Shown here one piece after another: positions 35,898-49,188 of a stretch of DNA of 64,000 bases (its first letter is position 1; each line of letters opens with the position of its first letter). This stretch comes from Aquimarina sp. MAR_2010_214. GTDB lineage: Bacteria; Bacteroidota; Bacteroidia; Flavobacteriales; Flavobacteriaceae. The notes beneath the pieces were generated by a model, which searched no databases, was not told the DNA's origin, and was given only the letters and a program-made list of their open reading frames with translations. Position numbers and translations under genes: made by a program. The DNA lies in contig NZ_PJMS01000001.1 in assembly GCF_002846555.1 (NCBI RefSeq), positions 2,418,001 through 2,482,000 of the forward strand, read 5' to 3'.

Positions 35898-37007
35898 TTA
35901 TATCTGTTCTTTTATTTTTTTAGGAATACCATCTTTATGAAGTAAAATCCCTACGGTTTTCATTCTAAAATATGCTTCAGACATATAAAGATACCCATGT
36001 TGAGCCCCTTTGACTCCCCACGAGTTTTTGATTTTATAATACGTTTTTCCTTTTTTATCAACTCCTTTTCCAACTAAATGCATTAAGTGATCATCTGTAG
36101 TATTGTAGTTTTCGAATTCTCTTTGCCGAGATTCGGAAGTAACTTTCTCTTCTTCAGCATACTCTTTAAATGCATTTTCACGTTTTTTTTCATTAGTAAG
36201 AATTGCTAAACCACTTTTTTGAGAAAACCCGATTTCACTTACATCTCCATCCCAGGCTACAGTATACCCTTCTTTTAAAGCATGATCAACTACTTGTTGT
36301 AACTCATCAAGTGGAATGTTATGGTATATACCATTAGAGAAATTATCTGGAATTTCTAGAATGAAATTACTATTCATGGGGTGATGGGTGAAAGAAGTTA
36401 ACGTGATGTAGTTATTTGCATCAATCCCGAGTTCTTTAGCAAATTCAATAGGGGTATACGTCTTATTATTATAGTTAAAAGTGTTAGGTCTTTTTCCAAT
36501 ATAGATATCTAACATTGCTTCGTAACTTTTCCACCAGTTTTTTGAAAGAATTTTGTGTTTTACCGCATTATCAACCATATTGGTTAATAATTTAATTAAC
36601 TCACTATGATCATGACGTTCTGCAATATTTCCAGCAAAACCCGTATAAATTTCATTAGGAATAATCCCGTATTTGCGAATAGATTTTATAACATCATGTG
36701 AGAGTGCTCCTTCGCTAAACTGAGCCTTTCCTTGTCTTAAGATATAATTTCTTGCTTTATCAGTATATGTATTTCTAACCTGAAATAATTCTGATAAATT
36801 GTGAACTCCATGTCCTAAACGAGCAACCTCTGACTCGATATAAGAGGTGGTAGAAAAACTCCAGCAGGTACCTGTTTTTCCTTGACTAATAACAGGATTA
36901 CATTGAAGAGATATTTTATCTGTGATGCTATAATCAGGATGTGTTTTTTGAGCATATCCTATAGATAAAAATAGAAACATGCAATTAATAAAAAAGAGTT
37001 TTTTCAT
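35898..37007 (-). CDS. C1-family cysteine peptidase (bleomycin hydrolase / aminopeptidase C type)
   Basis: The 369-residue protein has a signal peptide (1-19, ending IGYAQ). The catalytic triad is visible: Gln42 and Cys48 in ISQGKTGTCWSF, the histidine in DDHLMHLVG, and the asparagine in KIKNSWG. The family C1B includes bleomycin hydrolase and PepC, but those are cytoplasmic, while this one is exported. It lies 63 bases downstream of the TonB receptor gene on the same strand, with no terminator or promoter seen between them, so it may be part of the ECF-controlled transcript. Confidence 0.87.
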   Translation of the reverse strand: MKKLFFINCMFLFLSIGYAQKTHPDYSITDKISLQCNPVISQGKTGTCWSFSTTSYIESEVARLGHGVHNLSELFQVRNTYTDKARNYILRQGKAQFSEGALSHDVIKSIRKYGIIPNEIYTGFAGNIAERHDHSELIKLLTNMVDNAVKHKILSKNWWKSYEAMLDIYIGKRPNTFNYNNKTYTPIEFAKELGIDANNYITLTSFTHHPMNSNFILEIPDNFSNGIYHNIPLDELQQVVDHALKEGYTVAWDGDVSEIGFSQKSGLAILTNEKKRENAFKEYAEEEKVTSESRQREFENYNTTDDHLMHLVGKGVDKKGKTYYKIKNSWGVKGAQHGYLYMSEAYFRMKTVGILLHKDGIPKKIKEQI

Positions 37008-37070: not shown

Positions 37071-39623
37071 CTACCAAAAGACCCTGAAGCTAATATTTGG
37101 AGTGATTCCTAGTGACAGTATATCAGAATTGATAAACTGATTGTTCAGAGAATTGGTCGTCCTAAACTCTCTGTTTAGTAAATTCCTTTTATTATATAAA
37201 TTTAAAACAGAAAGTCCAATGCGATAATTGATATTGGAATTATATCCTATTTTAAAATCGTAAATAGCAGAGAAATCCAGCCTGTGATATTCGGGAAGAT
37301 TATTACTATTAATCTCATCAAATTCTAAGATTACAATTTCACCACTTTCATCTACTCCTGATACATTGGTAAAGACTTTTCCTGTATGCCAAATCCAACC
37401 TAAAGAGAATTGGAAATTATTAACTCTATAGAATTGAGACCATTTTACGGTATGTTCAATGTTCCAATTTCCAGGAAAAGATTCATCATTATTAATGTCT
37501 TCAAATGTATTACTGGTATTGATATATGAGTAGCTTACCCATGTTTTATAATTTTTGAATCTTTTTTTTAGAAAAAAATCAACTCCAAAAACTCTACTCT
37601 CTCCTATATGATAGGTGTTATCAATTGGGTTAATAAAACCAGAAGTTAGCGTAGTGATATCTTCGATTTGTTTGTAATAGCCGTCAATGTCCAAATACCA
37701 TTTGTTTTTTCTAAAACTGCTTCCTAAAGTAAATTGATAACTACTAATTACTGGGAATTGATCATTATTAGCTAATGTCCAGACTTTGTTTTCTAGCGAT
37801 AAATCACTGACCACGGATTCTTGTATCTGACTAGTAGCTTGACTTCTGTATTCTAAGCTAGTGTTAACTTCCCAGTTTTTAGTAATATATTTTTGAGCAA
37901 AAATCCGGGGCTCTATATAGGTTTTGTCAAGTTCTGCGTAAAAATTAAATCGTAATCCGACAGATACATAAAAGCTTTTTGGATTATCTAAAGTGTATTC
38001 TGCATATGCTGCATGAGTATTTAAAAAACTATCATCTTCATCCAAAATAAGTTGATAACCGGGGGTGGCTGTTACAAAAGCATATTTGATTGTATTGTTT
38101 GATAATTGATAACCGCCAGAGATACTTTGGTATTTTGATATTTTGTAATTCAATCCAAGTTCGGCACCAAAATCTCCAATACTGTTTTTTTTACTTTCAA
38201 TTTCTGTTATGGCTCCCAAGTTTCTTGTGATAAATTGATAATTTAGAAGGTATTTGGTGTAATATCCACTTACTTTGGTGTTGAAATTATTACTGTATAC
38301 GTGACTCCATTTAAAATTATATCCTTCATTCTCTGTAGTAAGCTCATCATTAAAAGATTCGGTAGTGTCACTTCTTCTAAAATCTAAGTCATTTTTACTA
38401 TAAATGGTATTAATTTCTATTTTATCACTATCTGATGGTTGTAGAATTAGGTTTGCATTATAATCTAAGTAGAAAAAATCATTATCTTCATCATTAAGGG
38501 GATCAGTCTCGGCAATTTTAGTATTCTGAAAAACACGATCAGAGAGCTGTTTGTAGGTAAATGTTTTTAAAACATCGGTGTATGATCTTCTTCCTGATAC
38601 CTGAATTGATATTTTATCTTGTAAGACAGGAATATGCGCTACGATATCTGCATTGATCATATTAAAACCGGCACCACCTGAAAACCGTTCTGCAATTTGA
38701 TTTTCTGATTTAATATCAATCACTCCTGCAATTCGATCTCCATATTGAGCACTAACACCGCTTTTAGAAAAATTAACCTCTTTAGCTACATATGGATTAA
38801 ACGCAGATAGCATACCAAATAGATGTCCTTGGTGATAGGTCTTTATGCCATTCCATAATACTAGATTTTGGTTAGGAGAACTTCCTCTTACAAATAATCC
38901 GGAAGCAGTCTCAAAAGGGTTGTTAACACCTGGAGTGAGTTGTATTGTTTGTAAAATGTCTGGTTCTGTACGGCCGGGGAGGACTTCTACGTTATTTAAG
39001 TCAATATGGATTACTTCTTTATTTTGGGTAATTCCTTTGGCTAAATATTCCTGAATAAAAACTTCATCAAGAATTTCTTCATGTGCATTGGTAAGGTTTA
39101 TTTTAATACACTCGTCAGTTAAAAATGATTTAGAATTCAAAATTCTTTGACGAAACCCCGGAGCACTAATTAAAATAACAGAATTGTATGGTACTTGACT
39201 ACTTTCAAAATAACCTTTATTATCTGTAGTTACATTAGTACGATTAGCTTTGAAAAAGATTCCTATATCCTTAAGTGGTTTTTGCTCTTCATCTAAAATA
39301 TATCCACAAACAGTGATACGATCTCTTTTATCCAAAGCACTGATAGTAACAAAGTTTTTTCCGGTGATTTTAAACTTTAATTTCGTTTGTTGTTGTAGTT
39401 GTTTAATTAAATTGTCTAGAGAATCTTCAGAATTTAGTATTAGAGAGATATTTTCATCCTCTATTAAGGTGTCGATATAAGAAAATTTAAGATTGTAGAA
39501 TTCTTCAATTATAGGAATTACTGAGGGTAGTGGTTTGTTATTAATAGTAATGACTTTTGCTTCTTCTTGAGAAGAAACAGATATGCTGCATAACAAAAGG
39601 CATACACATAAAAGTCTTATCAT
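37071..39623 (-). CDS. TonB-dependent receptor with STN signalling domain (FecA type)
   Basis: The 850-residue outer-membrane protein has a signal peptide (1-18). A secretin/TonB short N-terminal domain (about 25-98, ITINNKPLPSVIPIIEEFYN onward) is the part that contacts FecR in such systems. A carboxypeptidase-regulatory-like beta-sandwich follows (103-180), then the plug (about 205-310, with PDILQTIQLTPGV and FVRGSSPNQNLVLWNG) and a 22-strand barrel. It starts 4 bases after the fecR stop, so it forms a sensory cassette with fecR and the ECF sigma gene. The ligand is unknown; no siderophore or glycan genes adjoin. Confidence 0.9.
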   Translation of the reverse strand: MIRLLCVCLLLCSISVSSQEEAKVITINNKPLPSVIPIIEEFYNLKFSYIDTLIEDENISLILNSEDSLDNLIKQLQQQTKLKFKITGKNFVTISALDKRDRITVCGYILDEEQKPLKDIGIFFKANRTNVTTDNKGYFESSQVPYNSVILISAPGFRQRILNSKSFLTDECIKINLTNAHEEILDEVFIQEYLAKGITQNKEVIHIDLNNVEVLPGRTEPDILQTIQLTPGVNNPFETASGLFVRGSSPNQNLVLWNGIKTYHQGHLFGMLSAFNPYVAKEVNFSKSGVSAQYGDRIAGVIDIKSENQIAERFSGGAGFNMINADIVAHIPVLQDKISIQVSGRRSYTDVLKTFTYKQLSDRVFQNTKIAETDPLNDEDNDFFYLDYNANLILQPSDSDKIEINTIYSKNDLDFRRSDTTESFNDELTTENEGYNFKWSHVYSNNFNTKVSGYYTKYLLNYQFITRNLGAITEIESKKNSIGDFGAELGLNYKISKYQSISGGYQLSNNTIKYAFVTATPGYQLILDEDDSFLNTHAAYAEYTLDNPKSFYVSVGLRFNFYAELDKTYIEPRIFAQKYITKNWEVNTSLEYRSQATSQIQESVVSDLSLENKVWTLANNDQFPVISSYQFTLGSSFRKNKWYLDIDGYYKQIEDITTLTSGFINPIDNTYHIGESRVFGVDFFLKKRFKNYKTWVSYSYINTSNTFEDINNDESFPGNWNIEHTVKWSQFYRVNNFQFSLGWIWHTGKVFTNVSGVDESGEIVILEFDEINSNNLPEYHRLDFSAIYDFKIGYNSNINYRIGLSVLNLYNKRNLLNREFRTTNSLNNQFINSDILSLGITPNISFRVFW

Positions 39624-39627
39624 TCTA

Positions 39628-40542
39628 TTATTTTTCTAATACCACGGTCTTACTATCTTTCGATAGGCTATACTTCATGCCTAAGGTACTAAAAACTGTT
39701 CTAAGAGCAACTTCCTTATTATTGTTTGGAAAAGTTCCTGTGTATATAGTTTCGAGATTTATCTCTGTTGTTTTAATTTTTAAATCATATTGTTCTTCAA
39801 GTTCGTTAAATACATATTTGATAGGTATACTTCTAAACGAACTTGTATTATTAAGCCAGGATGGTTTCTGAGTATCAAAAGTCCAGCTTTCTGGGGCAGT
39901 ATTTTCTAGATTTCTATATCCTTTTCCTGCTGTTAGAATATTTTTATTTTCCTTATTAACAACACTAACTTTCCCTTCAAAACAAGTAACTTCAAAAAGA
40001 GTATTTTGAGATTGTACGTTAAATTGAGTTCCTAGTACAGAGACTTTTCCATTTTTGGTTGTAACAGTGAATTTGCTTCCTTTTTTTACTTTAAAAAAAG
40101 CTTCTCCTTCTAAGGTCACCATTCTATTTTTCTTCCAATTTTTCTCATCAAAGCTTGCAGTCGATTTGGCATTTAAGATCATTTCGGATCCATCTGGCAA
40201 TGTTACAGTTAATTGCTCTCCATAGTTGGCATTAAAAGATTCGCTGGGTTTAAATAAAAATATCCCTAAAATAATTACGATTGAAGCGGCAACTGCTATG
40301 TAAGGCCATAATTTTATAACCGAATTAGATTTTTCTTTTGATGTATAACTTGATTTAGATTTTAAAGTAGAGAGTTCTTTTTCTATATCATAATCTGTTA
40401 GATCCAAAGCGTCAGCACCGGCCATTATTTTTACATAATGCTCATACTCAGGGTGAGACTTAAACTCACGAAGTTCTTCCTCAGAAAGCTCTCCGTTAAT
40501 CCACCTGGATAAGAATATATCATCTTTTTTATCGTCTAACAT
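39628..40542 (-). CDS. FecR-family anti-sigma factor
   Basis: The 304-residue protein has a cytoplasmic N-terminal segment (1-77, LSRWINGELSEEELREF), one transmembrane helix (about 78-97), and a periplasmic FecR domain with VTLPDGSEMILNAKSTASF, GEAFFKVKKGSKFTVTTKNGKVSVLGTQFNV, and a C-terminal STN-binding part. It would hold the ECF sigma factor inactive until the TonB receptor signals. It has its own ECF-type promoter (40564-40590) in the 87-base gap after the sigma gene. Confidence 0.9.
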   Translation of the reverse strand: MLDDKKDDIFLSRWINGELSEEELREFKSHPEYEHYVKIMAGADALDLTDYDIEKELSTLKSKSSYTSKEKSNSVIKLWPYIAVAASIVIILGIFLFKPSESFNANYGEQLTVTLPDGSEMILNAKSTASFDEKNWKKNRMVTLEGEAFFKVKKGSKFTVTTKNGKVSVLGTQFNVQSQNTLFEVTCFEGKVSVVNKENKNILTAGKGYRNLENTAPESWTFDTQKPSWLNNTSSFRSIPIKYVFNELEEQYDLKIKTTEINLETIYTGTFPNNNKEVALRTVFSTLGMKYSLSKDSKTVVLEK

Positions 40543-40563: not shown

Positions 40564-40590
40564 AACGTTTTATTTTTAAATTACCCTACC
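40564..40590 (-). promoter_or_regulatory. ECF-type promoter of fecR-TonB receptor (site A)
   Basis: On the minus strand GGTAGGGTAA (40590-40581), 13 bases, then CGTT (40567-40564). The same 14 bases with the same spacing occur in front of the two PKD-like lipoprotein genes. CGTT ends 21 bases before the fecR start codon, a sensible leader. The GG-rich -35 and CGT-type -10 are typical of ECF sigma factors, not of the housekeeping consensus. Confidence 0.75.
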
Positions 40591-40629
40591 TTTTTATATT
40601 AAAAAGTTTTCTAGGTCAATAGGCATATT

Positions 40630-41151
40630 CTAAATATTTCCTATTTTTTTTCTTAATGTTATCAATGCTTTGTGCATTAATTTCTCTATAGCTTTTACAG
40701 AAACATTCGATAGTTCTGCAATTTCCTTATATGTTTTTTTATCTATTCGACTTAGCAGAAACACTTCTCTTTGACGTTCTGATAAATCTGCAATTGCACT
40801 TTTTAATTTTTCCATATACTCTTTTTCAAGAGCAATAAATTCTGGTGATTCGTGATTGATGTCTGTTTTACGTTGTATAATGTAATCTCTGTATTTGAAC
40901 CTCACTTTTTGATGTCGTGTAACGCTAATACCAAGATTAGTAGCAATTGTATAAATGTAACTTTTAGCCTTATCTATAGAAACTTTAGAGCAATTATTCC
41001 AGAGTTTAATAAATGCATCTTGAACAATATCTTCGGCCTGTTCCAGATCTCCAAATTTATAATATATGTAATTCCTCAAAAGTTTGGAGTTACTCTTGAA
41101 AAATTCGTCAAAGACTTGCTCGTTACAAGTAGAATTTTTGTTGTCAGACAT
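40630..41151 (-). CDS. ECF-type RNA polymerase sigma factor
   Basis: From ATG at 41151 the product is 173 residues. Region 2 has the helix LEQAEDIVQDAFIKLWNN, and region 4 has LSERQREVFLLSRIDKKTYKEIAE followed by the DNA-reading helix VSVKAIEKLMHKALITLRKK. There is no region 3, as expected for ECF (FecI-like) factors. The frame is open to 41175, but the housekeeping promoter at 41173-41203 starts transcription near 41166, inside that extension. It is the first gene of the sigma-fecR-receptor cassette. I infer that it recognises the GGTAGGGTAA-N13-CGTT element. Confidence 0.92.
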   Translation of the reverse strand: MSDNKNSTCNEQVFDEFFKSNSKLLRNYIYYKFGDLEQAEDIVQDAFIKLWNNCSKVSIDKAKSYIYTIATNLGISVTRHQKVRFKYRDYIIQRKTDINHESPEFIALEKEYMEKLKSAIADLSERQREVFLLSRIDKKTYKEIAELSNVSVKAIEKLMHKALITLRKKIGNI

Positions 41152-41172
41152 CTGGGAAATAAAATATACTTC

Positions 41173-41203
41173 CAAAACTAGATTTTTTTTTCAAGCTATC
41201 AAA
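41173..41203 (-). promoter_or_regulatory. Housekeeping promoter of the ECF sigma gene
   Basis: On the minus strand TTTG (41203-41200), 19 bases, TAGTTTTG (41180-41173). This is a consensus Bacteroidota promoter with a leader of about 15 bases to ATG 41151. The sigma gene is thus probably made constitutively and controlled after translation by FecR. Confidence 0.75.
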
Positions 41204-41224
41204 AAATAAAAAAATAAAGTATGG

Positions 41225-41251
41225 GGTAGGGTAATTTTTTTTTGAGTCGTT
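41225..41251 (+). promoter_or_regulatory. ECF-type promoter of the four-domain PKD-like lipoprotein (site B)
   Basis: GGTAGGGTAA (41225-41234), 13 bases, CGTT (41248-41251), identical in sequence and spacing to sites A and C. It is divergent from the housekeeping promoter of the sigma gene, 22 bases away. The leader to the start at 41312 is about 52 bases. Confidence 0.75.
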
Positions 41252-41311
41252 TCATTTTAAGAGAGGTTTAAAAAGCTTCTTAAGAAAATTTACTAACCCC
41301 AAAAATTATTC

Positions 41312-42481
41312 ATGATGAAAAAATTTAGTATTTGGTATACGTTGATATTTGCACTTTTGTTAGGATTTATCTCTTGCGAAACGGAAGATTTTAATAATGA
41401 TCCAGAGGTTGAGATCGTTATTGATAACAAAGAAGGAAGTGCCGTTTATAGTTTTGAAGCTAAAACCAACGGAATTAACAATGATGCAGAAATAATTTGG
41501 TCTGTTGATGGAAATGATATAGAAGGAGAAGATAAAGAAAATATCATCAATCAGATTATGGACTACCTGTTTGAACCTGGAAAACACACAATTTGTGTTA
41601 GAATAATAACAGAAGAGAGAACGGTAGAAGCCTGTGCTGATATAGAAGTAGAGGTAGATGAAAATAACCCTTGTCCTGATTTGTTTTTTAGAAGTAAGCA
41701 TTACCAAGGGCGATCTACTTATAAATTTATTGCAGATTTTAAAGAAATTCAAGAGGTATCTTATGGGTGGTATATTAATGGCGAATTAGTAGAAGATTCT
41801 GCACCTAATGAAAATAATTATTTTATATGGAATTTTAAAGAGCCGGGAAGGTATGAAGTATGTATCAAAACAGAAACACCAAATTGCCCAGAAGGGGTTT
41901 CTTATTGTAAAGTTATAGAAGTCGAAGCATCTGATTTAGCTTGTCCAGAAGTTTCTTTTACAAAAGAAATGGAACCAGAAACAATGGGGACGTATACTTT
42001 TGATGCGAAGATAGAAGGTGTAGATGAGGTAAGCCAAATACTATGGTTTGTTGATGGAAAGGTTGTAGACTCACCAAAAAATGATAATGATTCGCAGATA
42101 GGAAATAGAACTCTTATATATCAATTTGATTCTGGTGTTCATGAAGTATGTTTAAAAGTGATTACTCCTGATTGCCAAGAAGGAGTGAAATATTGTAAAG
42201 AGATAAGAGTAGGGGATTGCCCAGATCTGTTCTTTGAACCAGAACGAGATGGAGATAAAGCCGCGTATTATTTCTACCCTCGTGCATTTGAAGGAATTGA
42301 TAATATTACTCTAGAATGGTTTGTTAATAAGAAATATGTTGGTAAATCACCAGAATTCCCTCATAATAATCCGTTTTATCATGAATTTGATGGGCCAGGG
42401 AGGTATGAAGTGTGTTTGATGATAGAGACTCCAGAATGTCCTAACGGAACATCATTTTGTAAGATTATAGAATTTGAATAA
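41312..42481 (+). CDS. Surface lipoprotein with four PKD-like, cysteine-rich domains
   Basis: The 389-residue product has a type II signal peptide (lipobox GFISC, cysteine at 22) and four domains of about 85 to 95 residues. Domains two to four share the pattern CP-[DE]-[LV]-x-F, a central W-[FY]-[VI]-[ND] strand, then G-[RV]-[YH]-EVC[IL]-x-x-x-TP-x-C-x-x-G-x-x-[YF]-CK-x-I, with four cysteines each; the first domain is diverged. The beta-sandwich pattern resembles PKD or Ig-like folds. It lies divergently from the sigma gene and has the ECF-type promoter. I infer a surface or periplasmic binding protein expressed together with the TonB receptor; its ligand is unknown. Confidence 0.8.
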   Translation: MMKKFSIWYTLIFALLLGFISCETEDFNNDPEVEIVIDNKEGSAVYSFEAKTNGINNDAEIIWSVDGNDIEGEDKENIINQIMDYLFEPGKHTICVRIITEERTVEACADIEVEVDENNPCPDLFFRSKHYQGRSTYKFIADFKEIQEVSYGWYINGELVEDSAPNENNYFIWNFKEPGRYEVCIKTETPNCPEGVSYCKVIEVEASDLACPEVSFTKEMEPETMGTYTFDAKIEGVDEVSQILWFVDGKVVDSPKNDNDSQIGNRTLIYQFDSGVHEVCLKVITPDCQEGVKYCKEIRVGDCPDLFFEPERDGDKAAYYFYPRAFEGIDNITLEWFVNKKYVGKSPEFPHNNPFYHEFDGPGRYEVCLMIETPECPNGTSFCKIIEFE

Positions 42482-42555
42482 TTACTTAATTTTCTATTCA
42501 TCAAAGAATAGATTATATAATACAATAAGTTAGTTAGGTTAGATTAATTAGGTTG

Positions 42556-42594
42556 ATTCCCTGGGAGCAAGGCCATGCTTCTGGGGAATTTTTG
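42556..42594 (+). terminator. Terminator of the four-domain lipoprotein gene
   Basis: ATTCCCTGGGAGCA (42556-42569) pairs with TGCTTCTGGGGAAT (42576-42589), 14 pairs with three G-U wobbles, followed by TTTTT. It lies 75 bases after the stop. The rest of 42482-42855 holds no gene I can support; an inverted repeat TCAATATTGT/ACAATATTGA lies at 42813-42847. Confidence 0.75.
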
Positions 42595-42850
42595 TTTATA
42601 GGATTACGATATATATTATTTATGATTAGTAATCTATAAAAATAAAGTTGAATGACAGAGTTTGATATAAGGATTTGAAAGAAAATTTATATAAACTTTT
42701 TTGATTCTTCTTTTACAATCTTAGGATAATATACAAGATAAGTCACTTGTTTTTTTTGGTGCTTTAGAGTAGTTTTCCGTTCAATGGGTAGGTGGTTGCT
42801 ATATAAAACGAGTCAATATTGTTAAAAAAAAACAGCTACAATATTGATAT

Positions 42851-42886
42851 AAAAAATAGGGGTGAGATTTTCTATCTCACCCCTAT
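42851..42886 (-). terminator. Terminator of the susC-susD operon
   Basis: ATAGGGGTGAGAT (42856-42868) pairs perfectly with ATCTCACCCCTAT (42874-42886) around TTTCT. On the minus strand the hairpin is followed by TTTTTT. It lies 31 bases after the susD-like stop. Confidence 0.9.
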
Positions 42887-42917
42887 GAATTATGCTAATA
42901 ATTTATTGGAATATTGA

Positions 42918-44372
42918 CTAATTCAAATCCCAGAAAAGTTTTGTTTCGGCAAGATCGCCACCTATAGCAGCAGAGCCTGCTGTCCAATTTGTAGGGTTTA
43001 AAGTTTGCTCAATAACAGGATATGTATATCTGTTTGGAAAACCAGATTTAGGTTTATCCGGAGTAGCTAATGTTGGGAAATCTAAAAGTCTGATTGAAGT
43101 CCAAGCTTCTAAACCTCTATTAAACAAGGCTATCCATTTTTGATTACCTATTACTTCTTTCCAAGGAGTAGTTGCAGTACTTGCTGCCAAGGCAGTATCA
43201 TAATCTACCGTTGGTTGAGCAAGGTATGTCATTGCATCTGCATTTGATCCTCCCCAGCTTTCTATTGATTCTACTACAGCAATATCGTAATGACTCTTTG
43301 CTGTTCCTCCAACTGCAAAAGTTCTAGCAGCAGCTTCAGCTAATAAAAACTCAACTTCTGCATAATCAAGAATTACACCAGGAGTTGTAGCTGCTTCTAC
43401 TTGAGCAGATACATGAGAATGTGAATCAAAATCCGAGGTCATACCAATACCTCCGCCAATATAATTTCCAGTTCCAGGTACTTCTAAAAAGTACAAAGGT
43501 CTTCTAGGGTCATTTAATGTGTTCATCATATCTACAATAGTAACCGCAGCAACAAAATCATTTCTCCCACTCAAAACTAAATTATTATGAATAGGATTTG
43601 TGTTTGGTGCAGCTGCTAGATATGTGAAATTAGCATTATCAGCTCTGCTGGTAAATACACCACTTGTTACGGCATCTTCTACCGTAGTTTTAGCAAATGC
43701 ATTATCCACATCAGATAGTAGAATACCCATTCTTAGTTTTAAAGAAGCAGCAAATTTTTTCCATAGTGATGTATCTCCACCATAAATATTATCTGCAAGT
43801 CCAAAACTTCCTTTGCTTGTGTCTAATGCATTAATAGTAACTGTAAGTCTTTCTATAAGAGTTTTATATACCGTCTCACCTTCATCATATGTAGGTAATA
43901 AGTCATCAATGTCTAAGGCTTCTGCGTAGGGAACGTTTCCAAAAGTTTCTACTAAGATGCTATAAGTATAAACGGTTAATATTTCTATTACCTGAAGCTT
44001 ATTGGCTTTAGTCTCAATATCTGTAGGTAGTGAATATTGAGTTTCTTCAATAACCTTAGCTGCTTCATCTAAATCTTTTAAAACATCTTTATAAAGAACA
44101 CTCCAATGCGTAGCTGGAATGGTTCTTGTTACTTGGTCATATTGACTTTCTTGTAAATATGTTGTTTCCTGTAAATATTGTGCCCAGAGTTTGGTGTTAT
44201 TGTTATTAACATTTAAATCAACCACTTGGTCAACTAAATTCTTCTGCGCACCAGTAAACAATGTTTCTCCAGGAACAGAAGATGGATCTTTAATATTCTC
44301 ATTCAAACTCTCGAGGTTGTCCGAACAAGATGCTATAATTACCGCGGTAATTAGAATTAATATTTTTTTCAT
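42918..44372 (-). CDS. SusD/RagB-family nutrient-binding lipoprotein
   Basis: The 484-residue protein has lipobox IIASC (cysteine 16) and the helical TPR-based SusD fold. NENIKDPSSVPGETLFTGAQ follows the signal, and DYAEVEFLLAEAA near residue 325-337 is the SusD family's C-terminal helix motif. It belongs to the SusD-like group annotated SusD/RagB (Pfam SusD-like). It caps the SusC-like transporter at the cell surface and delivers a glycan or peptide. No glycoside hydrolase or peptidase gene adjoins, so the substrate stays open. Confidence 0.9.
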   Translation of the reverse strand: MKKILILITAVIIASCSDNLESLNENIKDPSSVPGETLFTGAQKNLVDQVVDLNVNNNNTKLWAQYLQETTYLQESQYDQVTRTIPATHWSVLYKDVLKDLDEAAKVIEETQYSLPTDIETKANKLQVIEILTVYTYSILVETFGNVPYAEALDIDDLLPTYDEGETVYKTLIERLTVTINALDTSKGSFGLADNIYGGDTSLWKKFAASLKLRMGILLSDVDNAFAKTTVEDAVTSGVFTSRADNANFTYLAAAPNTNPIHNNLVLSGRNDFVAAVTIVDMMNTLNDPRRPLYFLEVPGTGNYIGGGIGMTSDFDSHSHVSAQVEAATTPGVILDYAEVEFLLAEAAARTFAVGGTAKSHYDIAVVESIESWGGSNADAMTYLAQPTVDYDTALAASTATTPWKEVIGNQKWIALFNRGLEAWTSIRLLDFPTLATPDKPKSGFPNRYTYPVIEQTLNPTNWTAGSAAIGGDLAETKLFWDLN

Positions 44373-44382
44373 CTTTATTTTT

Positions 44383-47300
44383 TTAAAATTGTAATTTTAA
44401 GTTGAAACCAAAATCTCTAGTTGTTGGTAATGATCCAGTAGAATATCCTTGCAAATTACCAGAACCTAAACCTCCTTCAGGATCTTCATGAGGAATATTT
44501 TTGTCAATAATCCAAAGATTAGAACCAATTACACTAAAAGAGACATCATTTAAGAAGGTACGGTCAATTATTTTTTTAGGAAAAGTATATGTTAGGGAAA
44601 CTTCTCGTAATTTTATATAACTAGCATCATAAACGAAAGCTGAGTCAGGAAAACCTCCATCAGATCCAAAAAGAGTATATTCATCTCCTGCAAGTCTTGT
44701 GGTATTTGGAGAGCCATCGGCAGTAACACCCGGATTGATAAAACCTCCACCGTCTGCTAAACTATTTCTTACTGGGTTTCCAAGATCATTTGTAAAAGCA
44801 GTTTCGGCATATAAACCAGTACCTAAACCATAATATTGATCCAAAGAGAATATATCCCCTCCTTTTTGAATGTCAATTAAAAAGCTAAAAGCAATATTTT
44901 TATAATTAAATTTATTGGAAATACCCATCAACCATTCTGGGTTTGTATCACCAATCACATTATTAGAAGCAGCAGTTTTTTCATAGTAACCATCTGCACC
45001 AACAATTCTCTGACCATTTAAATAGGTGTAATCTGTACCATAAATAACTCCATAAGGTTGTCCTATAGTAGCATTTATTGTTATACCTCCTTGAAAATCA
45101 CCTAATTGAAGATTTTCGATACCATCTTCTAAGGAAATTACTTTATTTTCATTTTTAGACCAGTTTACATTTACGTCCCAGGAAAAATTTTGGGTCTGCA
45201 CGGGAGTTCCGTTTACAGATAACTCAATCCCTTTGTTTTCAATTTCTCCAGCATTTAAGATTTTTGAAGTGTATCCCGTACCTCTACTAACTGGTACTCC
45301 AAAAATTTGATCTATAGAGTTGTTTATGTAATATGCGATATCAAACCCAAATCTACTTTTTAAAAGCTTCATTTCTAAACCAAGTTCTGTACTTGTTGTT
45401 CTTTCAGGTTTTAAATTTGGATTCTTTTTTACATCACCTACCGAAGTGCTAGCACTTCCAATAGGAGTATTTACATCCTTAACATCATATAAAAAGTCAA
45501 AAGGAGCACTGTTACCCACTTCTGCATAATTAGCTCTTATCTTACCAAAAGATATAATGTCTGTATCTAAAAGATTAGAAAAAACAAAACTACCTGCAAC
45601 AGATGGGTAATAGAATGTGCTACTATCTTTTGGTAAAGTTGAAGAATGATCTCTTCTTATTGTACCATCCAAAAATAACATGTTTTTATACCCTAAAGAT
45701 ACACTAGCATACAGACCATCAACTCCAATTTTTTCATCTCTTTCAACAGGTAAAGGAAGCGGTCCTGCACTGTTCTGTAAAGAATATAGTCTAGGGACAC
45801 TTAACCCACCACTGGTAGATGCATAAATAGATTGAAAATGATTTCTTCTAATGTTGGTTCCTAGAGTTCCTTTAACGTTGAATTCTTCACTTAGGTTTTT
45901 GTTAAAGTTAAACATTAAATCATAATTAGTCTCTGTATTTCGAATATCTCTTCTTCCATAGCCAGAATCGACATTACCTCTACTAACTCCAAAACGAGTA
46001 GGAACACTACCATTTGCTCTTCTTTCTTCTTGTAACTCAGAATATGTATCAGTAGCAACTCTACCTGTAATGTTAAACCAATCAGTTACTTTGTAATTTA
46101 AAGAAACATTACCTAAGAAACGATTTCTCGTATCGGTTTGGTAGTTTTCATATCGTTTCCAATATGGATTATCCCAATAAATAGGAGCAGAACCTGCATT
46201 AGCCGAGGCAGGGTTCCAAGTTACATTTCTTCTTGTAGCAAAATAGATGTCTTCTTGTTGTTTTAGGTCAACATTGGTCTGCCACCATTGTTTAAACATA
46301 CTTGTGATATTATCACCATATCCTGTAGAGTTACGACCTAAACCATCTGTCTTGATGTAATTAGCGTACCCTGTAGCAGTTAGTTTATCATTAAGTTTAA
46401 AACTTCCGCTCATAGAAAAATTATGCTTCTTGATAGAACTGTTTGGCATTATCCCAGTTTGATCAAACTTAGTATAATTTAACCTATAAGAACCTTGATC
46501 ATTCCCTTTGTCAAATGATAAAGAGTTTGTAATAGTAATTGGAGTTTCGTAAAAGGTAATAGGGCCATTCTTTGCATTTACCCAAGGAGTAGCTATTCTA
46601 TAGTTAGGCGAATCAGGATCTAAAGCATCCCATTGATATACCAATAAACTGGGATCAAATGGAGATCCATAAGAGGCATCATGGCTATATCTAACTGTTC
46701 TATCATCTGCTGTACCATCACCTAGAATGTCTCGTTGATAAAAACCTGAGCTATAACCTGCTCCATATTGAGTTTGATATTTTGCAAATGTACTTTTGTC
46801 GATAGACCCGAATGTCATTCCAGAACTAACCGTAATACCTAATCCTTTAGATTTCCCTCCTTTTTTGGTAGTAATCATAATTACTCCATTTGCAGCTCTA
46901 GATCCATAAAGAGCAGATGCAGCCGCACCTTTTAGAATATTTATAGATTCTATATCTTCAGGATTAATATCTGATGCAGCATTTCCATAATCATAATATC
47001 CTCCTCGAGCATTTGCCTGACCTACAGAATTACTATTTGTATTATTGATAGGAACCCCATCAACAACAAATAAAGCCTGGTTACTTCCGGTTAAAGAAGC
47101 ATTACCTCTAATAACTACATTGGTAGATCCTCCTAAATTGTTATTTCTTTTAATTTGAAGACCTGAAGCCTTACCAGAAAGAGAATTTACAAAATTCGCA
47201 GTTTTTACTCTGTTCAAATCTTCTCCATCAACTTCTTGTGTAGCATACCCTAGAGATTTTTTATCTCTAGAAATACCAAGGGCTGTAACTACTATTTCTT

Positions 47301-47607
47301 CTAATTGAGAAGCAGTAACTTCTAGCTGCACATTAATAGTTCTTTGGGCACCAATGATAATCTCTTGATCTGCAAAACCAAGATAGCTGAATACAAGAGT
47401 ATTCCCTTCAGATGCTTGTAGTGAGTACATTCCGTCAAAATCTGTTTGGACTCCACTATTGCTGCCCTTTACTATGATATTTACACCAGGTAGTGGCATA
47501 CCACTATCGTCTGTGACCTTACCTGTTATAGGGCTTTCTTGCGCAATAGAAAATTGCGTAACTAATACCGTTAAAAGTATTAGCATGTTTTTTGTTAATA
47601 ATTTCAT
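44383..47607 (-). CDS. SusC/RagA-family TonB-linked outer-membrane transporter
   Basis: The 1074-residue protein has a signal peptide (1-22), a carboxypeptidase-regulatory-like domain (about 25-100, ITGKVTDDSGMPLPGVNIIVKG), the SusC-specific DUF region with LEEIVVTALGISRDKKSLGYATQ (the TonB box area), a plug with INILKGAAASALYGSRAANGVIMITTKKG, and a barrel to the C-terminal FGFNLKLQF. It pairs with the SusD-like protein encoded 10 bases downstream. The 408-base region upstream shows no consensus promoter and no ECF element for this direction. Confidence 0.93.
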   Translation of the reverse strand: MKLLTKNMLILLTVLVTQFSIAQESPITGKVTDDSGMPLPGVNIIVKGSNSGVQTDFDGMYSLQASEGNTLVFSYLGFADQEIIIGAQRTINVQLEVTASQLEEIVVTALGISRDKKSLGYATQEVDGEDLNRVKTANFVNSLSGKASGLQIKRNNNLGGSTNVVIRGNASLTGSNQALFVVDGVPINNTNSNSVGQANARGGYYDYGNAASDINPEDIESINILKGAAASALYGSRAANGVIMITTKKGGKSKGLGITVSSGMTFGSIDKSTFAKYQTQYGAGYSSGFYQRDILGDGTADDRTVRYSHDASYGSPFDPSLLVYQWDALDPDSPNYRIATPWVNAKNGPITFYETPITITNSLSFDKGNDQGSYRLNYTKFDQTGIMPNSSIKKHNFSMSGSFKLNDKLTATGYANYIKTDGLGRNSTGYGDNITSMFKQWWQTNVDLKQQEDIYFATRRNVTWNPASANAGSAPIYWDNPYWKRYENYQTDTRNRFLGNVSLNYKVTDWFNITGRVATDTYSELQEERRANGSVPTRFGVSRGNVDSGYGRRDIRNTETNYDLMFNFNKNLSEEFNVKGTLGTNIRRNHFQSIYASTSGGLSVPRLYSLQNSAGPLPLPVERDEKIGVDGLYASVSLGYKNMLFLDGTIRRDHSSTLPKDSSTFYYPSVAGSFVFSNLLDTDIISFGKIRANYAEVGNSAPFDFLYDVKDVNTPIGSASTSVGDVKKNPNLKPERTTSTELGLEMKLLKSRFGFDIAYYINNSIDQIFGVPVSRGTGYTSKILNAGEIENKGIELSVNGTPVQTQNFSWDVNVNWSKNENKVISLEDGIENLQLGDFQGGITINATIGQPYGVIYGTDYTYLNGQRIVGADGYYEKTAASNNVIGDTNPEWLMGISNKFNYKNIAFSFLIDIQKGGDIFSLDQYYGLGTGLYAETAFTNDLGNPVRNSLADGGGFINPGVTADGSPNTTRLAGDEYTLFGSDGGFPDSAFVYDASYIKLREVSLTYTFPKKIIDRTFLNDVSFSVIGSNLWIIDKNIPHEDPEGGLGSGNLQGYSTGSLPTTRDFGFNLKLQF

Positions 47608-47962
47608 TATTGCATGTTAATTTTTGTTAGTAGGCAAGGTTATTAAGAAAATTTTCAGAAAAATAAGGATAATGATTTTTTAACAAAAAATTAACAATAA
47701 AATTGTAAGGGTAACTAGGAAAAGCGACTAATTGTCATTTTTTATGACATGAAGAAATTTCAATTTGTTTTATATCTTATAATTTTTAGAACGATGAATA
47801 TCGAATAATATGATTTAATATCCAATGTTTTTTTATAATATTATTGATGAATTAAAATTCATTGAGTTGTTTTATTATCCATAGCTGTGTTCGGTGTATT
47901 TGGATAGTCTTTTGATTCTAATTTTATTTTGTATACATTCATCCATATTAAATAAGAAATGA

Positions 47963-47989
47963 GGTAGGGTAAATGAATTTGTAAACGTT
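47963..47989 (+). promoter_or_regulatory. ECF-type promoter of the two-domain lipoprotein (site C)
   Basis: GGTAGGGTAA (47963-47972), 13 bases, CGTT (47986-47989). Sequence and spacing equal sites A and B although this site lies more than 6 kb from them. The leader to the TTG start at 48016 is about 20 bases. The rest of the gap 47608-47962 shows no other feature I can support. Confidence 0.72.
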
Positions 47990-48015: not shown

Positions 48016-49188
48016 TTGAATAAATTAAGTACATATTGCAAAGGTTTTATGCTTACATTGGTAATGTTTGTGTATTCTTGTGTAAATGATGATTCTTTTT
48101 TTCCTGATAACATAGATGCTAAGATTACATCAACTACAACAATAGTATCTATCCTTAATGATATAAAAACCAGAAATTCGGTGATAAATGAAGAAGATCT
48201 GTGTTTTGCTTTTAAATATCCATTAATGTTTGGTTATAATACAGATTCGACTATACGAATTGATAATTTTCAAGGGTTACTTGGAGTGATTTCTGGACAA
48301 AGCTCAAATTTCAATATAACTGGGTTGCAATTCCCTATTCAGATCGTATTTAAAGGAACTGATAAAGCGTTTCTTGTAGAAAATGAAAGTTCTTTTATTA
48401 ATGTGCTTAGAGAGTGTGAGATAAAAACATTCAGAGATATCTTTAATCATTTATATAGGCAATGTTTTAAGTTTGAATATCCTATTACATTAAGTGATAA
48501 AGAAGATATAGAAATTAAAATTGATAGTAAGGATGATTTTAATCGTTTTCTTACCAATCAAGGAGCTAATTATCAACCAGATTTTAAATTTCCAATATCA
48601 ATATTAGTTGCTCCTGATTTTAAAGCAACACAGATATCAACCTATTATGAGTTTTATGAAATCATAAATAATTGTGTTGGTTGTCCCGATATACGATTTG
48701 AAATCCAGCATTTACAAGATAATAAGTATAAGTTTATTCCCGATATCGAGATTATGGAAGGATATCAATTATTTTTTAAAATCAATGGAGAGGTAATTGC
48801 TGATCAAGTTATTGATGGAAACCCATTTATAAGGCAATTTACTCCCGGGACATATGAAACTTGTATAAAAGTAGTTACTCCTAACTGCCTTAACGGGACG
48901 ATTACTTGCAAAGAAATTGTGGTAGAACCTATTTGTCCTGAGATTACATTTACTAATGAACAAGTTTCTGGTACAAATACATACAAGTTTAGTCCCTCGG
49001 TTACAGGAGAGAGTAATGATGTAACTATACGTTGGTATGTTAATGATGTTTTTATTGAAAACTCATTATTAAGTGCAGGGATAGTAGAGTTTGATTTGGA
49101 TCAAGGTACAAATTCTGTCTGTGCACAAGTAATTACTGCAAATTGCCCAAATGGGGAACAGTTCTGTGATGAGGTAGTTGTTCCTTAG
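48016..49188 (+). CDS. Surface lipoprotein with two N-terminal repeats and two PKD-like cysteine-rich domains
   Basis: The product is 390 residues from a TTG start, MNKLSTYCKGFMLTLV, with lipobox FVYSC (cysteine 22). The TTG start supplies the lysines of the signal peptide; the first ATG (48049) would give only a very short one. Two related units follow (about 60-135 and 147-222), each with C-F-x-F-x-YP, a FPI-x-[IV] strand and a closing cysteine. The C-terminal part (about 223-390) has two PKD-like domains with CPDI or CPEI, then YETCIKVVTPNC and a later C-K or C-D, as in the lipoprotein at 41312. The shared domain and the shared promoter link the two genes functionally. Confidence 0.78.
   Translation: MNKLSTYCKGFMLTLVMFVYSCVNDDSFFPDNIDAKITSTTTIVSILNDIKTRNSVINEEDLCFAFKYPLMFGYNTDSTIRIDNFQGLLGVISGQSSNFNITGLQFPIQIVFKGTDKAFLVENESSFINVLRECEIKTFRDIFNHLYRQCFKFEYPITLSDKEDIEIKIDSKDDFNRFLTNQGANYQPDFKFPISILVAPDFKATQISTYYEFYEIINNCVGCPDIRFEIQHLQDNKYKFIPDIEIMEGYQLFFKINGEVIADQVIDGNPFIRQFTPGTYETCIKVVTPNCLNGTITCKEIVVEPICPEITFTNEQVSGTNTYKFSPSVTGESNDVTIRWYVNDVFIENSLLSAGIVEFDLDQGTNSVCAQVITANCPNGEQFCDEVVVP

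Follow-up and report, generated by a model that had tools for sequence, protein, structure and literature searches.

A 64,000-nucleotide stretch of the Aquimarina sp. MAR_2010_214 genome (contig NZ_PJMS01000001.1, positions 2,418,001 to 2,482,000; hereafter the window) contains a gene at 40630–41151 (minus strand) for a sigma factor of the extracytoplasmic function (ECF) type, together with three copies of a bipartite promoter-like element. Our comparison of this element across related genomes suggested, with a probability of roughly 0.8, that the protein is a FecR-type cell-surface-signalling sigma factor that controls an anti-sigma/transducer operon, surface lipoproteins, and small RNAs (sRNAs). 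The comparison supported the promoter logic of this system and the presence of conserved RNA-like units with covarying terminators.

Promoter element in the window and in Aquimarina genomes

The element GGTAGGGTAA-N13-CGTT was found in three exact copies with equal spacing and unlike spacers. One copy preceded the fecR operon (40564–40590, minus strand), one preceded the lipoprotein 1 gene and was divergent from the sigma gene (41225–41251, plus strand), and one preceded the lipoprotein 2 gene (47963–47989, plus strand). All coordinates and strands matched those reported in an initial annotation of the window, which had regarded the three 14-base sites as ECF promoters too regular to be due to chance. 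None of 100 dinucleotide shuffles reached three matches, and the whole-genome scan that the annotation had proposed (5,982,454 bases) returned the three window copies only, with no match to the reversed pattern. The copies were also placed 20–60 bases before start codons as claimed: the fecR ATG (40542) was 21 nucleotides (nt) away, the lipoprotein 1 ATG (41312) 60 nt, and the start of lipoprotein 2 either 26 or 59 nt, depending on whether TTG (48016) or ATG (48049) is taken as that start. Allowing one mismatch added three sites genome-wide; a single-mismatch site at 2120161 (minus strand) was located inside a gene, was judged to be a chance match, and was rejected as a member. The relaxed pattern GGTAGGGT-N15-CGTT yielded five copies in this genome, of which the two extra ones were not located before protein genes.

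To extend the analysis, we used 44 Aquimarina-type loci, 52 Aquimarina genomes, and 297 other genomes of the family as an outgroup (G000 denotes this genome). The relaxed pattern was present in 48 of the 52 Aquimarina genomes, with 228 copies versus 12 of the reversed pattern, and the conserved core was GGT(A/G)GGGT-N15-CGTT. The bipartite core of the proposed 14-base element was therefore retained, whereas the last two A residues of its 10-mer fell outside the conserved part. The upstream alignment suggested in the initial annotation, comprising 34 fecR promoters and 42 divergent promoters from the 44 loci, showed constant boxes and variable spacers, part of each box being set by the search expression. 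The divergent element was present at 42 of the 44 loci.

The placement of the element was equally regular. From the loci analysed, we collected 136 distinct elements, a subset of the 228 copies; two of these were inside an open reading frame (ORF) of at least 150 amino acids, compared with 3748 of 6162 random positions (61%) in the same loci. All 19 elements with fecR downstream were located 20–24 nt before it, and the distance to the sigma gene ranged from approximately 10 to more than 500 nt; because the former distance was nearly constant and the latter variable, the element belongs to fecR. The 44 loci contained 92 lipoprotein-family ORFs, of which 90 had an element near their start and the remaining two (L250 and L251) had it further upstream. 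Up to three consecutive genes of this family each carried their own element. Elements at sigma-fecR loci were also found in Kordia, Flagellimonas, Croceivirga, Dokdonia, Ancylomarina, Marinifilum, and Cyclobacteriaceae. These data indicate that the element is under selection.

Association of the element with the sigma factor

Element number followed the presence of the sigma gene. Near-complete genomes with an orthologue of the 40630–41151 sigma factor (at least 68% identity; n = 37) contained a mean of 5.11 elements, and the five near-complete genomes without it contained 4, 0, 1, 1, and 0 (p 5e-4, a value that ignores kinship). This test left out six genomes with intermediate sigma factors (54–59% identity), four of which were near-complete and had 6, 10, 2, and 6 elements (G057 and G062 being intermediate by identity alone), as well as four incomplete genomes without the orthologue, which had 0, 3, 0, and 2.

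A second association emerged from the -10 box, which was CGT or TGT depending on the locus. We classified 82 sigma genes (80 loci by script and two of this genome by hand), and 73 of them had at least one local element: 49 with CGT on both sides, 10 with TGT on both sides, four with a mixture of the two, and 10 with an element on one side only. Sigma residues 74–79, which we take to be the part of region 2 reading the -10 box, differed sharply between the 51 CGT-only and the 11 TGT-only loci. CGT-class proteins had mostly G, I, and S at positions 74–76 and R at 79, and TGT-class proteins had F, Y, N, Q, and V at positions 74–78.

Both box types were found in this genome, which encodes two further sigma factors at 51% identity to that of the window. 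A second cassette, with its sigma gene at 1033731–1034228, contained three GGTAGGGT..TGTT elements (L118 8697–10936; G000:C1 ~1033696–1035935) preceding its fecR, a gene for a 525-amino-acid membrane-type protein, and a gene for a protein that is presumably ATP-grasp-like. A transducer gene was also part of this cassette. Separately, an isolated TGTT-type element was observed before a Crp-family-like regulator gene (L117 6220–6246; G000:C1:5633219–5633245, minus strand).

Taken together, four observations supported the view of the initial annotation that the 40630–41151 sigma factor reads the element as an ECF-type promoter: orthologous-site conservation, placement between genes, occurrence together with the sigma gene, and the correspondence between residues 74–79 and the -10 box. 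Cross-recognition by paralogous sigma factors is possible because these share the same -35 box.

Candidate small RNAs

Two isolated elements outside the window preceded no gene and were followed by short, conserved noncoding units, which we regard as candidate sigma-dependent sRNAs. Candidate sRNA A (~80 nt, with a strong terminator) was located at G000:C1:2370580–2370664 on the minus strand, with its element at 2370665–2370691, and candidate sRNA B (~125 nt, with a terminator) at 5606853–5606982 on the minus strand (L114), with its element at 5606983–5607009. Both were identified by the element and by covariance models, which were built from the RNA bodies only, excluding the promoter. Model A detected 14 Aquimarina genomes at E values of 6.3e-6 or better, eight of them outside the training set, and the element ended 0–3 nt upstream of the body in all 14, being exact GGTAGGGT in 11 and differing by one change in three. 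Six weaker matches (E 8e-5 to 5e-4) were all without the element. Model B detected 17 Aquimarina genomes (10 outside the training set), each with the element upstream; it was within 90 nt of the body in 15 and within 170 nt of the core in G071 and G059. At the corresponding loci (L321 and L203, respectively), the element was displaced from the body; an inserted repeat seems to be the cause in G071. The strict B core was present in 14 distinct copies at the loci analysed, and every copy had an element at most 200 nt upstream.

Beyond a sigma-type promoter directly upstream in every genome detected, both candidates had an intrinsic terminator, and pairs of the terminator stem had changed on both sides at 6 of 10 positions in A and 7 of 13 in B. 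Across the copies compared, neither a start codon nor a small ORF was conserved. Two other groups of RNA-like units were found: group C, comprising four tandem units ~170 bp apart in G027 (L124 5961–6620), which lacked an ORF and each had a separate element and terminator, the terminator of the fourth unit being different; and group D, in four genomes. AGGGAC was observed in an apparent hairpin loop of group D (L140, L141, and L143; by eye) and of sRNA B (L114). None of groups A–D matched Rfam at gathering scores in the 13 loci searched. The search for sRNA B in the 297 outgroup genomes, which used strict filters, scored few candidates per genome, and could therefore miss a distant relative, gave 12 weak matches, which were terminators without core or element.

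Protein-coding genes downstream of the elements

We classified 135 of the 136 elements, one having too little downstream sequence, using an ORF criterion of an ATG within 200 nt and a length of 60 amino acids. An ORF followed 77 elements, including 19 fecR, 19 of the lipoprotein 1 type, 14 of the lipoprotein 2 type, and a further 25, the majority of which showed, by eye, an N-terminal signal peptide or lipobox. As judged by a crude expression, 43 of the 58 non-fecR ORFs appeared to be exported, a proportion exceeding that among ORFs of this genome (43 of 168; Fisher p 9e-11), although this test counted one family often because many of the 58 were orthologues of the cassette lipoproteins. The remaining 58 elements lacked such an ORF, a few of them preceding lipoprotein 2 genes with a non-ATG start.

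Similarity grouping of 60 elements (two with a doubtful ORF) yielded, among others, a B cluster of 12, an A cluster of nine, one of eight upstream of a small protein, and two with four members each. The cluster of eight had been considered a Band-7 leader, which was rejected when a membrane protein of 56–60 amino acids was found downstream. In this genome, that protein has 60 amino acids and its element is the variant GGTAGGGA..CGTT at 3428034–3428060 (L116 6035–6061, minus strand). Comparison of nine loci, this genome included, showed that the element was located 156–171 nt before a sigmaA-like TA(C/A)ATTTGC box, with the small protein 3' of this box, in all nine. The arrangement thus resembles two stacked promoters, one ECF-type and one sigmaA-like.

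The initial annotation had proposed a small regulon of three genes. These genes retained their place, and the restriction to three was rejected after the pattern had been relaxed; the regulon seems to be larger, with two candidate sRNAs and the small membrane protein encoded elsewhere in the genome.

Cassette genes in the window

The 40630–41151 sigma factor (173 amino acids) contained sigma-70 regions 2 and 4 (Pfam Sigma70_r2 and r4_2) without region 3 or 1.1, which is an ECF architecture; its TIGR02985 score was 123.8 bits, slightly below the cut-off of 126.4. The adjacent gene at 39628–40542 (minus strand) encodes a FecR-like anti-sigma factor (Pfam FecR), a sequence relative of 4m0n and 4m0h, which are solved structures of putative anti-sigma factors. 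A FecR-type anti-sigma factor was encoded at 43 of the 44 Aquimarina-type loci, the exception (L221) being a short contig. Next in the operon is a gene for an 850-amino-acid TonB-dependent transducer-like protein (37071–39623, minus strand) with an N-terminus of the FecR_C type (STN-like; Pfam FecR_C at 25–91 and Plug at 220–301). The Pfam scan of this protein gave no match to an STN or beta-barrel model, and no solved structure was found as its sequence relative. A C1-like cysteine peptidase (Pfam; 35898–37007, minus strand), present in 14 of the 44 loci, is possibly the last gene of the fecR operon.

Lipoprotein 1 (41312–42481, plus strand) was predicted by AlphaFold to consist of four beta-sandwich repeats (mean predicted local distance difference test 76.8; predicted template modelling score 0.61). 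Lipoprotein 2 (48016–49188, plus strand; alternative ATG start at 48049) contained two related repeats; the two lipoproteins have a ~90-amino-acid repeat in common (36% identity across 180 aligned columns). A structure search of PDB with lipoprotein 1 returned many Ig/FnIII-like arrays at low template modelling scores and nothing specific. A protein search gave 69 matches, whose named sources were all Aquimarina, many matches having no name. Both lipoproteins are probably surface-exposed. A SusC/SusD pair was observed between the two lipoprotein genes (42918–47607). It was rejected as part of the regulon: the pair was on the opposite strand, lacked the element, and was present at nine of the 44 loci (the 44 being L210–L252 and L255). 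Three tRNA genes were observed at 1143–1501 on the minus strand of the window.

Proposed mechanism and alternative explanations

By analogy with known FecI/FecR systems, an outer-membrane signal would pass through the transducer to FecR and free the sigma factor. Polymerase loaded with it would read GGT(A/G)GGGT as the -35 box and CGTT as the -10 box and would transcribe the fecR-transducer operon, possibly including the C1 peptidase gene, as feedback; because this operon is in its predicted regulon, the sigma factor would raise its own brake and sensor. It would also transcribe the genes of the two Ig/PKD-repeat lipoproteins, candidate sRNAs A and B, and the 60-amino-acid membrane protein. 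The sRNAs may adjust other mRNAs by pairing, as sigmaE-dependent sRNAs do.

Several observations weigh against control of this set by the 40630–41151 sigma factor. Looser matching in a single genome carried no signal, because two mismatches in this genome gave 30 matches versus 43 for the reversed control; another loose pattern gave 23 versus 24. Outside Aquimarina, the 297 genomes showed no enrichment (74 matches versus 101 reversed). The species in the co-occurrence test are related, so their counts are not independent, and G003 had four elements without a close sigma orthologue, its best sigma factors being 48–49% identical. The CGT and TGT sigma classes also differed elsewhere, including residue 158 in the region 4 helix, despite their common -35 box. 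A target search for the sRNAs by duplex energy, which covered the start regions of a small fraction of the genes (164 regions), gave nothing beyond shuffled queries.

Some of these points would also fit real ECF promoters that are common to several paralogous sigma factors, in which case a network of them, rather than the 40630–41151 protein alone, would jointly produce the regulon. The GGTAGGGT box shared by paralogous cassettes, the two paralogues in this genome, the four CGTT elements of G003, the four loci with one CGT and one TGT element, and a B-like RNA with a TGTT element in G067 all point in this direction. The local -10 class nevertheless tracked residues 74–79 over the 51 CGT-type and 11 TGT-type loci, and element number tracked the sigma orthologue; we therefore consider joint control a tentative alternative that is rather unlikely. 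Far less probable is that the element is the binding site of a DNA-binding regulator and not a sigma promoter. Two boxes at a fixed spacing would suit such a site, but the element is asymmetric, was always oriented to the gene start at fecR and the lipoprotein genes, and had a -10 form that covaried with the adjoining sigma gene; its spacing and CGT also fit ECF promoters.

The noncoding arm invites a different objection, namely that A and B are not sRNAs and that transcription from the isolated elements yields antisense RNAs or short leaders that read into terminators belonging to convergent genes. The orientation of A and B in this genome fits this view: both point to the 3' end of a convergent gene and have a terminator that could act on either strand. 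Yet the bodies were conserved upstream of the terminators, and in B the stretch GTTT(A/G)RGGGRCAAA showed few changes among 17 species whose terminators differed. The sequence behind A in G067 was unlike that in other species, the four tandem units in G027 each had their own promoter and end, and conservation of a start codon or small ORF was absent. We consider this explanation improbable and retain A and B as candidate sRNAs of the proposed sigma factor regulon.

Significance and comparison with known systems

To our knowledge, ECF regulons in Bacteroidota are mostly unmapped. The present one can be delineated by sequence in dozens of species; it offers an exact promoter and a specificity rule that could be swapped and tested, and it ties two candidate sRNA families to a surface-signalling sigma factor. 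RybB and MicA are sigmaE-dependent sRNAs. If the proposal is true, the idea of envelope-sensing sigma factors using sRNAs would extend to a phylum for which the passages of the sources considered here note one putative case (Rfp11). We slightly favour a broader view, in which marine Bacteroidota have independently built a sigmaE-like response with a noncoding arm: a FecR/TonB-transducer sigma factor would drive Ig-repeat lipoproteins, a small membrane protein, and the unrelated sRNA families A–D, of which B and D would expose an AGGGAC-type loop, and parallel cassettes would have a common -35 box, with sigma region 2 accounting for their different -10 boxes.

As in FecI/FecR/FecA and HasI/HasS/HasR, an ECF sigma factor, a FecR-type anti-sigma factor, and a TonB-dependent protein with a FecR_C/STN-like N-terminus are encoded together. 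According to passages of PMC9249621, fecIR of E. coli is controlled by Fur and lacks autoregulation, whereas fecR here carries the element itself. Unlike in FecI/FecR/FecA, the predicted output consists of surface lipoproteins and sRNAs, and no iron-uptake genes were noticed in the cassette. An ECF regulon with a noncoding arm recalls the sigmaE-dependent sRNAs (passages of PMC11005410 and PMC1804206), including Fusobacterium sigmaE, which drives FoxI and FoxJ (PMC11005410); the present system differs from these in phylum, in its FecR/transducer control, and in its unrelated candidate RNAs.

Within Bacteroidota, the CGT-type ECF motif SM6 of Flavobacterium psychrophilum, as described in part of PMC9723704, precedes an ECF/anti-sigma pair, type IX secretion system genes, Band-7 genes, and others, and its selected list includes one putative sRNA, Rfp11. 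The CGT -10 box, the ECF/anti-sigma pair, and the presence of a putative sRNA are shared features of the published description, whereas the other listed genes differ (PMC9723704). The TGTT -10 box of the paralogous cassette resembles that proposed for SigW-1 and SigH-1 of B. thetaiotaomicron in passages of PMC12596196, where the motif test for SigW-1 sites was not significant; those passages contain no GGTAGGGT box, and sRNA is absent as a term from the main text. In 2020, according to part of PMC7366714, no motif was known for ECF sigma factors of B. thetaiotaomicron. Our literature search, in which most matches were judged from listings, recognised no paper describing this Aquimarina regulon. 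On the basis of this comparison with related systems, the type of system is known, and the promoter, the regulon, and the small RNAs appear to be new.

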